This document shows, piece by piece, positions 12,259-27,130 of a stretch of DNA of 64,000 bases (the stretch's first letter is position 1; every line of letters starts with the position of its first letter). The position numbers and the translations under genes were made by a program. Under the pieces are notes generated by a model. The model ran no database searches. It saw only the letters and a program-made list of their open reading frames with translations, and was not told the DNA's origin. This DNA comes from Thauera sp. JM12B12. GTDB taxonomy: Bacteria > Pseudomonadota > Gammaproteobacteria > Burkholderiales > Rhodocyclaceae. The DNA lies in assembly GCF_039614725.1 (NCBI RefSeq), contig NZ_CP154859.1, forward strand, positions 3,162,001-3,226,000, given 5' to 3'.

Positions 12259-12272
12259 TTGACGTGGGTCAA
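12259..12272. promoter_or_regulatory. Fnr/Dnr-type box between hemN and fnr
   Basis: TTGACGTGGGTCAA is a perfect TTGAC-N4-GTCAA inverted repeat, close to the Fnr consensus TTGAT-N4-ATCAA. Reading toward hemN, a CATTGT hexamer starts 22 nt past the box, giving a position near -42 for class II activation. No good -10 is seen toward fnr, where the box could act as an autoregulatory site. Confidence 0.8.
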
Positions 12273-12343
12273 CGGGCATGACTTGAAAGTCCGCTCGCGC
12301 CCATGTCGGCGTCTTTCGTCGGGGAAGCAGGATTATCGTGCAG

Positions 12344-13084
12344 ATGAGGGCAACCGTGCCAATTACCGTGAACGGGTTGAAGACTGCCTGTTCGCAGTGC
12401 AACCTGGTCGAGCTTTGCCTGCCCTTCGGCATGTCCGACAGCGAGTTGAGCCGTCTCGACGAGCTCGTGGGCGCGCGGCGCAAGGTCAAGCGCCAGCAGA
12501 ACCTCTACCGGGCAGGCGACCCCTTCGAGGCGATCTACGCGATCCGTGCGGGCTCGTTCAAGACCGACGTGCTGCTGGAGGACGGCCGGGAGCAGGTCAC
12601 CGGCTTCCAGATGACCGGCGAGATCCTCGGCCTCGACGGCATCAGCACCGAGGCCCACAGCTGCAATGCCGTCGCCCTCGAAGACAGCGAGGTGTGCGTG
12701 ATCGCATACGACAAGCTCGAGCAGCTCTCGCACGAGATCGACGGACTGCAGCTCCAGTTCCACAAGGTCATGAGCCGCGAGATCGTGCGCGACCACGGCG
12801 TGATGATGCTGCTCGGCTCGATGCGCGCCGAGGAGCGCCTGGCCGCCTTCCTGCTCAACATGTCGCAGCGCTTCAACGCGCGCGGCTTCTCGTCGCAGGA
12901 GTTCAACCTGCGCATGACGCGCGAGGAGATCGGCTCCTATCTCGGGCTCAAGCTCGAGACCGTGTCGCGCGCGTTCTCGCGCTTCCAGGAAGACGGGCTC
13001 ATCTCGGTTCAGCAGAAGCACGTGCTGCTGCTCGACCCTGCCGGACTGAAGAGGCTGATCCAGCACCAGCAGGGCGTGCGCTGA
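12344..13084 (+). CDS. fnr: Fnr-type oxygen-sensing transcriptional regulator
   Basis: 246 residues from ATG at 12344; a GTG two codons upstream (12338) is an alternative start. The four cluster-ligand cysteines of Fnr are present: C16, C19 and C25 (ACSQCNLVELC) plus C118 (SEVCVIAYD), so an O2-labile [4Fe-4S] sensor is expected. A cyclic-nucleotide-type beta-roll (about 40-120), a dimer helix and a Crp HTH with the ETVSR recognition helix follow. ETVSR is the Fnr specificity signature for TTGAT half-sites. The boxes at 12259, 15745, 21835 and 22180 are obvious targets. Confidence 0.95.
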   Translation: MRATVPITVNGLKTACSQCNLVELCLPFGMSDSELSRLDELVGARRKVKRQQNLYRAGDPFEAIYAIRAGSFKTDVLLEDGREQVTGFQMTGEILGLDGISTEAHSCNAVALEDSEVCVIAYDKLEQLSHEIDGLQLQFHKVMSREIVRDHGVMMLLGSMRAEERLAAFLLNMSQRFNARGFSSQEFNLRMTREEIGSYLGLKLETVSRAFSRFQEDGLISVQQKHVLLLDPAGLKRLIQHQQGVR

Positions 13085-15744: not shown

Positions 15745-15788
15745 TTGATCACGATCAATCATGGCCGGGCGCTTCACATCGCTATAAT
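15745..15788 (+). promoter_or_regulatory. Fnr box and -10 element upstream of the universal stress gene
   Basis: TTGATCACGATCAA (15745-15758) matches the Fnr consensus at every position. A perfect TATAAT (15783-15788) lies 24 nt further, which puts the box centre near -43 to -44 relative to a start at about 15795. This is a class II activation geometry, slightly stretched. The same box is 50 bp before the beta-CASP gene on the other strand. Confidence 0.85.
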
Positions 15789-20300: not shown

Positions 20301-21731
20301 TCAGGCGTGGGCAGCCGCAGGCGCGAGCACCGGGGCGTCGTAGGCCTTCTGGCCGGCGATGGTCTTCAGCATGTTGTAGAACATGATGAACATGCCGGTC
20401 AGGAACAGCGCGCCGCCGATGAAGCGGATGGTCCAGAACGGATAGCTGGCCTTGACGCTCTCGACGAAGGAGTAGGTCAGGGTGCCGTCCGGGTTGGTGG
20501 CGCGCCACATCAGGCCCTGCATCACGCCGGAAATCCACATCGAGGCGATGTAGAGCACGATGCCGATGGTGGCGATCCAGAAGTGGGCGTTGATCAGCTT
20601 GACGCTGTACATCTCGGTCCGGCCATAGAGGCGCGGCAGCAGGAAGTAGACCGAGCCGATCGAGATCATTGCCACCCAGCCCAGCGCGCCCGAGTGCACG
20701 TGACCGACCGTCCAGTCGGTGTAGTGCGACAGCGCATTGACCGTCTTGATCGACATCATCGGACCTTCGAAGGTCGACATGCCGTAGAAGGACAGGGAGG
20801 TGATCAGGAACTTGAGGATCGGGTCGGTACGCAGCTTATGCCACGCACCCGACAGGGTCAGCACGCCGTTGATCATGCCACCCCAGGACGGCGCGAGCAG
20901 GATCAGCGAGAACACCATGCCGACGGACTGCGTCCAGTCGGGCAGCGCGGTGTAGTGCAGATGGTGCGGGCCCGCCCACATGTAGGTGAAGATCAGCGCC
21001 CAGAAGTGCACCACCGACAGCCGGTAGGAATAGACCGGGCGGTCGGCCTGCTTGGGCACGAAGTAGTACATCATCCCGAGGAAGCCGGCGGTCAGGAAGA
21101 AGCCCACCGCATTGTGGCCGTACCACCACTGGATCATCGCGTCCTGCACGCCGGCATAGGCGGAGTAGGACTTCATCGAGGTCAGCGAGACCGGAATGGC
21201 TGCGCTGTTGACGATGTGAAGCAGCGCCACGGTGAGGATGAAGGCGCCGAAGAACCAGTTCGCGACGTAGATGTGCGAGACCTTGCGCTTGGCGATCGTG
21301 CCGAAGAAGACGACGGCGTAGGAGACCCACACGATCGCAATCAGGATGTCGATCGGCCACTCGAGCTCGGCGTACTCCTTGGAGGAGGTGTAGCCCAGCG
21401 GCAGCGTGATCGCCGCCAGCACGATGACCAGTTGCCAGCCCCAGAACGTGAAGGCCGCGAGGCCGGGGGCGAACAGCCGAGTGTGACAGGTGCGCTGCAC
21501 GACGTAATACGAGGTCGCGAACAGCGCGCAGCCACCGAACGCGAAGATCACGGCGTTGGTGTGCAGCGGACGGAGCCTGCCGAAATGCAGGAATTCGTGC
21601 ACGTTCAGTTCCGGCCATACGAGCTGTGCTGCGGCGATCACGCCGACCAGCATGCCCACAATGCCCCACACCACCGTCATGATGGCGAACTGCCGCACGA
21701 CTTTATAGTTATAAGTCGCTTGCGATTGCAT
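20301..21731 (-). CDS. ccoN: cbb3 oxidase catalytic subunit I
   Basis: 476 residues from ATG at 21729-21731, with AGAGGTGA upstream; a GTG three codons earlier is less well placed. About twelve membrane helices. The heme and CuB ligands of heme-copper oxidases are seen in [35 protein letters not shown] (paired His) and [14 protein letters not shown]. It reduces O2 to water with high affinity and pumps protons. First gene of ccoNOQP; an Fnr box and -10 lie 77-117 bp upstream. Confidence 0.97.
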
Positions 21732-21807
21732 GTGAGTCACCTCTTCGTTTTAGAAACCTTTCTTGCGCAGCAACCCTGAGGCGCCACGGATCTTGCCCAA
21801 CCCAGGG

Positions 21808-21848
21808 AGAATACCGGTGGCGCGAGTACGCAATTTGACACAGATCAA
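21808..21848 (-). promoter_or_regulatory. Fnr-dependent promoter of ccoNOQP
   Basis: Read on the minus strand, the box is TTGATCTGTGTCAA (21848-21835), one mismatch from a symmetric Fnr site. Exactly 21 nt further is TATTCT (21813-21808), a 4/6 match to the -10 consensus. The box centre is then at about -41.5 from a start near 21801, the classical class II position. Leader length to ccoN is about 70 nt. Confidence 0.85.
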
Positions 21849-22054: not shown

Positions 22055-22082
22055 AAAAAAAAGGGTGCGCATGAACGCACCC
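22055..22082 (-). terminator. Intrinsic terminator downstream of ccoS / end of the putative sRNA
   Basis: GGGTGCG and CGCACCC (22063-22082) form a 7-bp stem with a 6-nt loop, followed on the minus strand by eight consecutive T (22062-22055). It would end both readthrough from ccoIS and the shorter sRNA transcript. Confidence 0.9.
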
Positions 22083-22146
22083 CCAACCCCAACAGAGAGA
22101 CAAAAACCGGACTGACCACCGGCATGCCATGCCGGTCGATCAACAT
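22055..22146 (-). ncRNA. Putative Fnr-activated small RNA between ccoS and ccoN
   Basis: A transcript of about 92 nt is predicted from a start near 22146 to the U-tract at 22055. It has a short hairpin near the 5' end (perfect 9-bp arms ACCGGCATG/CATGCCGGT, 22118-22136), a single-stranded CU/GU-rich stretch (TTTTTGTCTCTCTGTT, 22091-22106), and a terminator hairpin followed by eight U. The upstream promoter has an Fnr box and a -10 with the same 21-nt spacing as ccoN. No convincing protein is encoded. This is a prediction; no family is recognised. Confidence 0.55.
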
Positions 22147-22152
22147 GCGTCC

Positions 22153-22193
22153 ATTCTGCCAACCGGCATCCCCGGCGTGTTGACATAGGTCAA
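22153..22193 (-). promoter_or_regulatory. Fnr box and -10 of the putative sRNA
   Basis: TTGACCTATGTCAA on the minus strand (22193-22180) is a perfect TTGAC-N4-GTCAA repeat. CAGAAT (22158-22153), a 4/6 -10 match, follows after exactly 21 nt. The next protein gene downstream is ccoN, more than 400 bp away and behind the terminator at 22055-22082, so this promoter does not serve a protein gene in any obvious way. Confidence 0.75.
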
Positions 22194-22212: not shown

Positions 22213-22443
22213 TCAGGAAGGCGCAGGTCCGTCCGTATCTCCCGCCTTCGTTTCGCCGCTGCGCTTCATCTCGCGCTCGGGCTCGCCCGCAGCATCCGGC
22301 TCGTCACGATCGTCCATCAGGAGCCGGTATGCAGGCCCCTCGAGATCGTCGAACTGGCCACTGCGCAAAGACCACCAGAACAACAGCCCGATCACGAACA
22401 CGAGCACGACCGAAAGCGGAATCAGCAGGTATAGGCTCTCCAT
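22213..22443 (-). CDS. ccoS: cbb3 oxidase maturation protein CcoS
   Basis: 76 residues from ATG at 22441-22443. The N-terminal helix (YLLIPLSVVLVFVIGLLFWW) is followed by SGQFDDLEGPAYRLLMDDD-type sequence (here GQFDDLEGPAYRLLMDD), the CcoS signature, and a charged tail. CcoS is needed for cofactor insertion into cbb3 oxidase. It is 20 bp downstream of ccoI, same operon. Confidence 0.95.
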   Translation of the reverse strand: MESLYLLIPLSVVLVFVIGLLFWWSLRSGQFDDLEGPAYRLLMDDRDEPDAAGEPEREMKRSGETKAGDTDGPAPS

Positions 22444-27054: not shown

Positions 27055-27130
27055 TGGTGCCGGAGAAGAGACTCGAACTCCCGACCTTCGCATTACGAAT
27101 GCGCTGCTCTACCAACTGAGCTACACCGGC
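27055..27130 (-). tRNA. tRNA-Thr (anticodon CGT)
   Basis: A 76-nt cloverleaf with encoded CCA (27055-27057). D-arm GCTC...GAGC, anticodon loop TTCGTAA giving CGT for codon ACG, 5-nt variable loop, T-arm GGGAG-TTCGAGT-CTCTT. It closely follows the E. coli thrW pattern in the anticodon region. The acceptor stem has one U6-U67 mismatch (GCCGGTG against CTCCGGC). Unprocessed transcript probably ends at the terminator 27013-27042. Confidence 0.95.

Follow-up and report, generated by a model that had tools for sequence, protein, structure and literature searches.

A conserved candidate small RNA gene with an FNR-type promoter in the cbb3 oxidase locus of Rhodocyclales and its predicted targets

We asked whether the gap between ccoS and ccoN in the cbb3 oxidase locus of Thauera sp. 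JM12B12 harbours an independent small RNA (sRNA) gene and, if so, what that RNA would control. A preliminary description of this DNA had proposed that an FNR box drives a short, terminator-ended transcript there. In the window (the whole 64-kb stretch of DNA analysed), the predicted sRNA of ~92 nt occupies 22055..22146 on the minus strand, with its 5' end estimated from the -10 hexamer and its 3' end placed at a T-run. It is flanked upstream by ccoS (22213..22443, minus strand, start inferred) and downstream by ccoN (20301..21740, minus strand). The FNR box, TTGACCTATGTCAA (22180..22193, minus strand), was identified as a match to the pattern TTGAC-N4-GTCAA. It had been called perfect, and it is indeed a perfect palindrome of TTGAC/GTCAA half-sites (22193-22180), but each half is one base off TTGAT-N4-ATCAA, the form quoted in PMC9765128. 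The -10 hexamer CAGAAT was located exactly 21 nt past the box, as described (22153..22158, minus strand), and the ccoN promoter shows the identical geometry claimed for it, with a separate FNR box at 21835..21848 (minus strand), a 21-nt spacer and TATTCT at 21813-21808. A scan for sigma-70 promoters between 20 and 26 kb found no consensus promoter, which fits a promoter that lacks a -35 element and depends on an activator.

From this start, the transcript would form a 5' hairpin (22112..22143, predicted by folding), run through a CU- and G-rich conserved pairing core, GUCUCUCUGUUGGGGUU (22085..22101, from the alignment of 48 sequences), and end in an intrinsic terminator stem-loop of 10 pairs (22061..22084) followed by eight T to 22055, all on the minus strand. 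Both the near-5' hairpin and the strong terminator about 92 nt from the start had been pointed out before. The fold of the 96-nt RNA 22150-22055 reached -37.6 kcal/mol (z -2.76 versus shuffles). The presumed activator, fnr, lies ~9 kb from the sRNA gene inside the 64-kb window (12338..13084, plus strand; NF008365, 248.5 bits against a cut-off of 228), and an Hfq gene is present in the genome. The FNR-box pattern TTGAYNNNNRTCAA occurs four times in the window versus 0.08 expected. Two further FNR-type boxes were seen, one at 12259-12272, immediately before fnr and inside a listed, divergently oriented HemN-like ORF, and one at 15745-15758, at the start of a minus-strand metallo-hydrolase-like ORF. 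The sole Rfam match at cut-off in the window was a tRNA gene (27058-27130, minus strand).

The preliminary description had judged the box unlikely to be chance and had named conservation in relatives as its own test. Locus BLAST matched 28 of 28 congeneric relatives (E 1.3e-12 or better). Of 249 genomes sampled across the family, 194, in 53 of 68 genera, had a match to a 62-base piece (E<=0.01). Both results bear out that judgement. Among 97 loci examined (four places were fetched twice), ccoS lies beside the sRNA on its upstream side in all 97, and ccoI is present in 96. The sRNA is on the same strand as ccoN and upstream of it in 91; ccoN is absent from the fetched DNA of the other six, two of which (L006 and L019) stop at a contig end. 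At L030 (G028:C1), ccoI and ccoS flank the sRNA and no ccoN was found in the fetched downstream DNA, though the contig goes on. The sRNA can be duplicated together with its oxidase operon, since one genome (G289) has the ccoS-sRNA-ccoN arrangement twice (L092 and L093).

This arrangement, which is compatible with FNR control, could also reflect a leader or attenuator of ccoNOQP, in which FNR-driven transcripts would mostly end at the terminator while a regulated fraction reads into ccoN. We consider this unlikely, because ccoN in this window is served by a separate FNR box and hexamer at an identical distance, because an attenuator has no need for an invariant pairing stretch, and because complementary sites occur at unrelated genes, as described below.

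An exact-pattern scan of named genomes returned at least 119 stretches. The genera among the matches listed were Thauera, Azoarcus, Aromatoleum, Zoogloea, Denitromonas, Uliginosibacterium, Sulfuritalea, Tepidiphilus and Hydrogenophilus; cco genes accompanied 118 of the 119 matches listed, and a box lay 50-210 nt upstream in 115. Two of the box-less matches listed (L164, L177) are cut by the fetched edge, and a third (L169) has a longer leader. The fourth (L226) is not the sRNA: read on the opposite strand, it is a target site ahead of a TusE/DsrC-like start (by translation reading). Across the order, 96 of 399 genomes matched model R1 at E<=0.001 under stricter filters; beyond family members, G440, G459 and G336, these matches scored below 32 bits, many spanning terminator positions only. 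Reading of 17 loci outside the family (L106, L107, L113-L127) revealed core, box and cco genes together in G440 and G459 only. The G336 match (E 1.7e-10) has neither core nor cco genes and was treated as chance.

We then compared the anatomy of the loci. A TTGA-N6-TCAA box is found upstream of the core in 97/97 loci and lies within 160 nt in 95; at L080 it is further up, at -198. At L069 (G080:C1) it stands at -735, ahead of an OmpW-like ORF (by translation reading) that ends with its stop codon right next to the core; here the sRNA would likely be a 3' UTR product of an FNR-driven OmpW-like ORF. A -10-like hexamer, (C/T)AnA(A/C/G)T, is placed 21 nt from the box in 42 of 90 distinct loci and 22 nt from it in 31, with none at 18-20 or 23-25 nt; the remaining 17 have it at neither 21 nor 22 nt. 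A distance of 21-22 nt in 73/90 loci suggests an FNR site placed to activate the promoter.

The alignment comprised 48 of 85 distinct cores, with duplicates dropped and L061 and L091-L093 left out where the core-extraction pattern failed. In these 48, UCUCUGUUGGGGUU is invariant, as are the GGGUG, the CACC and the T-run of the terminator, and TCTCTGTTGGGG is present in 97/97 loci; this invariance arises partly by selection, all loci having been recruited through similarity to that core. The 5' part and the flanks cannot be aligned, and their contrast with the invariant core is unaffected by locus selection. In the terminator stem, 98.4% of cells are paired and both sides changed in three of eight pairs. 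The hairpin is variable in sequence, and its folding propensity is kept: the 5' parts of 90 loci averaged z -2.06 versus shuffles, with 76% below -1. Averaged over the same 90 loci, the stretch described as CU-rich and single-stranded was so in part, with UGUU left exposed but CUC tending to pair with GGG. The loci read thus retain the box and its distance to the -10, the tendency to form a 5' hairpin, the core, the terminator and the place next to ccoS, so the candidate passes the conservation test that the preliminary description had set.

These patterns bear on two other accounts. The stem followed by the longest T-run among eight terminator-like sites between 20 and 26 kb is that of the sRNA, and it might be a mere strong terminator closing the ccoGHIS side, with a box that serves ccoN or nothing and conserved letters that are the terminator's own. 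Fourteen invariant bases outside the stem and a -10 at sharply fixed spacing from the box make this very unlikely. Alternatively, the transcript could be a small-protein gene or a dual-function RNA, given an ATG at the estimated start in this genome, where a 71-aa ORF starting at 22146 continues through the terminator; of 95 transcripts, 49 have an ATG-opened frame that crosses it. The other 46 have no such frame. Conservation is lacking in the 5' part, and species differ in reading frame through a one-base indel in the G-run; we find a coding role very improbable.

Because the core is invariant outside the terminator stem, we searched for its complement. The query was the 20-mer complement of 22081..22100 (minus strand; the core plus the first bases of the terminator 5' arm), with up to three mismatches, in 29 congeneric genomes. 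This yielded 20 non-self sites versus one for the reversed pattern. A scramble that kept the Shine-Dalgarno-like AGAGAGA end gave 29 matches, namely the sRNA gene itself in a shifted register (28) and one other, and the scramble's own reversed pattern gave six sites. An ATG-opened frame of at least 60 codons on the same strand began 20-59 nt downstream of 18 of the 20 sites versus 20% of random positions in the same loci, although placement near starts is partly expected for sites that hold a Shine-Dalgarno-like AGAGAG. The two exceptions were a sodB cut by a contig end and a site past the stop codon of an IcmF-like gene. In all, ~12 genes share the 20 sites, which are not independent, since sodB (five species) and one amidohydrolase, an Amidohydro_2 protein (five species), account for five each. 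Single sites belong to IspH, PaaN, a flavin reductase, a quinone reductase, a metallo-beta-lactamase-fold protein and unnamed others, and the site in this genome belongs to a protein with a urate oxidase N-terminal domain.

The 20-mer search and its AGAGAG-keeping scramble replaced a 12-mer test with a weak control. There, a start lay downstream of 46 of 80 real sites versus 9 of 28 control places and 26% of random positions, a modest gap; mismatches of the control, CACCACAGAGAG, fell in the AGAGAG part, and it supplied only 28 control places from 30 loci fetched. The 12-mer count leaves out two places, L268 and L371, although L268 is a real amidohydrolase site. The 12-mer sites add methanethiol oxidase MtoX (this genome and G027), IspH (seven species), one reductase (five species), catechol 2,3-dioxygenase and PaaK. 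In the 64-kb window, the 11-mer complement was no commoner than chance (13 versus 14.6 expected). As for the names, IspH, MtoX, both catechol 2,3-dioxygenases, TusE/DsrC and the quinone reductase score above curated cut-offs, as do, by Pfam, urate oxidase N, Amidohydro_2 and SBP56. Those of sodB (308 of 348 bits), the flavin reductase, the five-species reductase and the glutathione peroxidase fall below cut-off and were given by reading; the best NCBIfam matches of the five-species reductase are flavohemoprotein and PaaE, far under cut-off. PaaN, PaaK and a bd-oxidase subunit are cut by the edge of the fetched DNA.

The sodB gene was examined further. It is present in 29 of 29 congeneric genomes, and 27 leaders were readable (25 distinct); they were compared with 49 other leaders, a set that excludes loci chosen for their sites. 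At the ribosome-binding site, GAGAGAC occurred in 10/27 sodB leaders versus 1/49 others; an upstream C-rich site was present in 12/27 versus 0/49. With the same patterns applied to both sets, either complementary site was present in 22/27 versus 1/49; five sodB leaders have neither. Duplex energies were likewise stronger for sodB leaders (-31.5 versus -26.2 kcal/mol; p 1e-5). In this genome, the net co-fold energy was -21.9 kcal/mol for sodB, -25.6 for methanethiol oxidase and -33.7 for urate oxidase.

We also compared 30 sRNA-bearing genomes of the family from other genera, hand-chosen from the 194, with 20 genomes without a match, those listed of 55. The 20-mer search detected 26 non-self sites in the former versus two in the latter (binomial p 1e-4, uncorrected for kinship), and the reversed pattern gave five and three. 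At least one site was present in 16 of 30 sRNA-bearing genomes versus 2 of 20 without it (p 0.002, again uncorrected for kinship). A mechanical ATG test was passed by 17 of 25 counted sites in other genera (26 sites, with L542 left out); both sites of sRNA-less genomes pass it as well, and their frames look spurious. The sites in other genera belong to genes for catechol 2,3-dioxygenase, a glutathione-peroxidase-like protein, a bd-oxidase subunit, IspH, TusE/DsrC (two genera), an FAD monooxygenase and glutathione transferases, several of them named by reading. Others lie on NifB- and ferredoxin-like proteins, which are not obviously aerobic. Base pairing of the sRNA with several mRNAs is thus predicted, with computational support.

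We next compared the candidate with known sRNAs. In Escherichia coli, FnrS is activated by FNR and represses functions dispensable without oxygen (PMC8139620), and its targets include SodB (PMC8595263). The likeness to FnrS suggested before gains independent support from sodB, which is among the predicted targets here. The candidate differs from FnrS in its locus, in its pairing core and in having aromatic catabolism among its predicted targets; FnrS is absent from the eight Rfam matches up to E 10 at the locus, its cut-off not being reached. AniS of Neisseria meningitidis, an FNR-controlled betaproteobacterial sRNA with an inferred Hfq role (PMC4423775), has a similar layout, but its model RF02274 scored 17.7 bits (E 0.44) against a cut-off of 50. 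The closest Rfam resemblance was to SorY of Rhodobacter (RF02651; 33.0 bits, E 1.5e-5, cut-off 111), with SorX, also of Rhodobacter (RF02784), at 17.6 bits against a cut-off of 46.6. A common CUCYCUGUUGG and the hairpin-core-terminator layout make up this likeness, which may reflect either common descent or convergence. SorY and SorX are under RpoE/RpoHI/RpoHII stress control and target transporter mRNAs (PMC8307010). SicX of Pseudomonas aeruginosa is likewise under low-oxygen control, in its case through Anr, and activates ubiUVT; it is reported only in P. aeruginosa (PMC10247376), and homology to it was compared through Rfam alone. The earlier statement that the RNA belongs to no recognised sequence family therefore holds at Rfam cut-offs, with a weak SorY resemblance. 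By its sequence, the candidate would represent a new sRNA family of a known functional kind, to which FnrS and AniS are not recognisably related.

S17/bdhR1 is a terminator-ended betaproteobacterial sRNA with an ultra-conserved core, and PaaN is a listed S17 target (PMC11722255). PaaN also carries a complementary site for the present sRNA in one genome, but the cores differ. RF02278 has no match at the sRNA locus (gathering score 50 bits), and identity with S17 was rejected given the different core and separate loci. Two RF02278 genes above the Rfam cut-off, with the core TCTCCTCCACCCTCCTCC, were located elsewhere in this genome, at G000:C1:3234103-3234168, ~8 kb past the window end, and at G000:C1:3338159-3338227 (loci L257 and L258). 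The G-rich core of our candidate and the presence of these two copies could point to a sponge for other sRNAs, for instance for these CU-rich RNAs of the Betaproteobacteria toxic sRNA type. However, the co-fold gain was ~3 kcal/mol with either copy versus 22-34 kcal/mol for the four mRNA leaders tried; on this energy a sponge for RF02278 RNAs was rejected, and we give a sponge role in general very little credence.

We consider it probable that the locus encodes an independent sRNA gene whose product is an FNR-activated, trans-acting repressor of aerobic functions that works like FnrS. Under low oxygen, FNR would bind the box centred near -41 and activate transcription, and the transcript would stop at the terminator after ~92 nt and accumulate. 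The core, probably helped by Hfq, would then pair over up to ~20 nt with 5' leaders and ribosome-binding sites, and this pairing would block translation or speed decay of mRNAs for aerobic functions. What the sequences show is that the gene is conserved, that its promoter has a set geometry and that genomes carrying it are enriched in complementary sites close to gene starts; expression of the sRNA, its dependence on FNR, binding to Hfq and repression as the direction of control are what we infer. The targets of such a repressor would be sodB, urate oxidase, methanethiol oxidase and oxygenase-linked aromatic catabolism, as well as IspH, the glutathione-peroxidase-like protein and TusE/DsrC. 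For IspH and TusE it is not obvious that anoxic cells could do without them, which counts against the reading as a repressor of aerobic functions.

Members of the Rhodocyclales, Thauera, Azoarcus and Aromatoleum among them, break down aromatics both aerobically and anaerobically. A broader reading, on which we are evenly divided, is that the sRNA is a family-wide master regulator of the oxic-anoxic switch in Rhodocyclales, in which a single invariant core with a fixed place in the cbb3 oxidase locus evolves together with its sites at dozens of mRNAs. It would shut off oxidative defence and oxygenase-dependent aromatic catabolism on the change to anaerobic pathways, and in L069 the core would be the 3' UTR of an FNR-driven OmpW-type gene. 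The open-licence literature yielded no description of an sRNA between ccoS and ccoN in Rhodocyclales, which does not prove its absence, and no paper assigning an RNA-based shut-off of aerobic aromatic routes in this order. The proposal is directly testable with a single, easily deleted 92-nt gene and its predicted targets. If true, one more lineage would have reached FNR-driven RNA control of aerobic functions, with the sodB target in common with FnrS.

Two further arrangements of sites were observed. At L363 (G016:C103), a single cluster has two target-type sites, before a flavin reductase (12/12) and before a ferredoxin-reductase-like protein (11/12). In three genomes of two genera (L441, L544, L546), the 20-mer site lies right after the stop codon of an IcmF-like mutase (by reading) and before a terminator-like repeat; this 3' UTR site is possibly a sponge for the sRNA.
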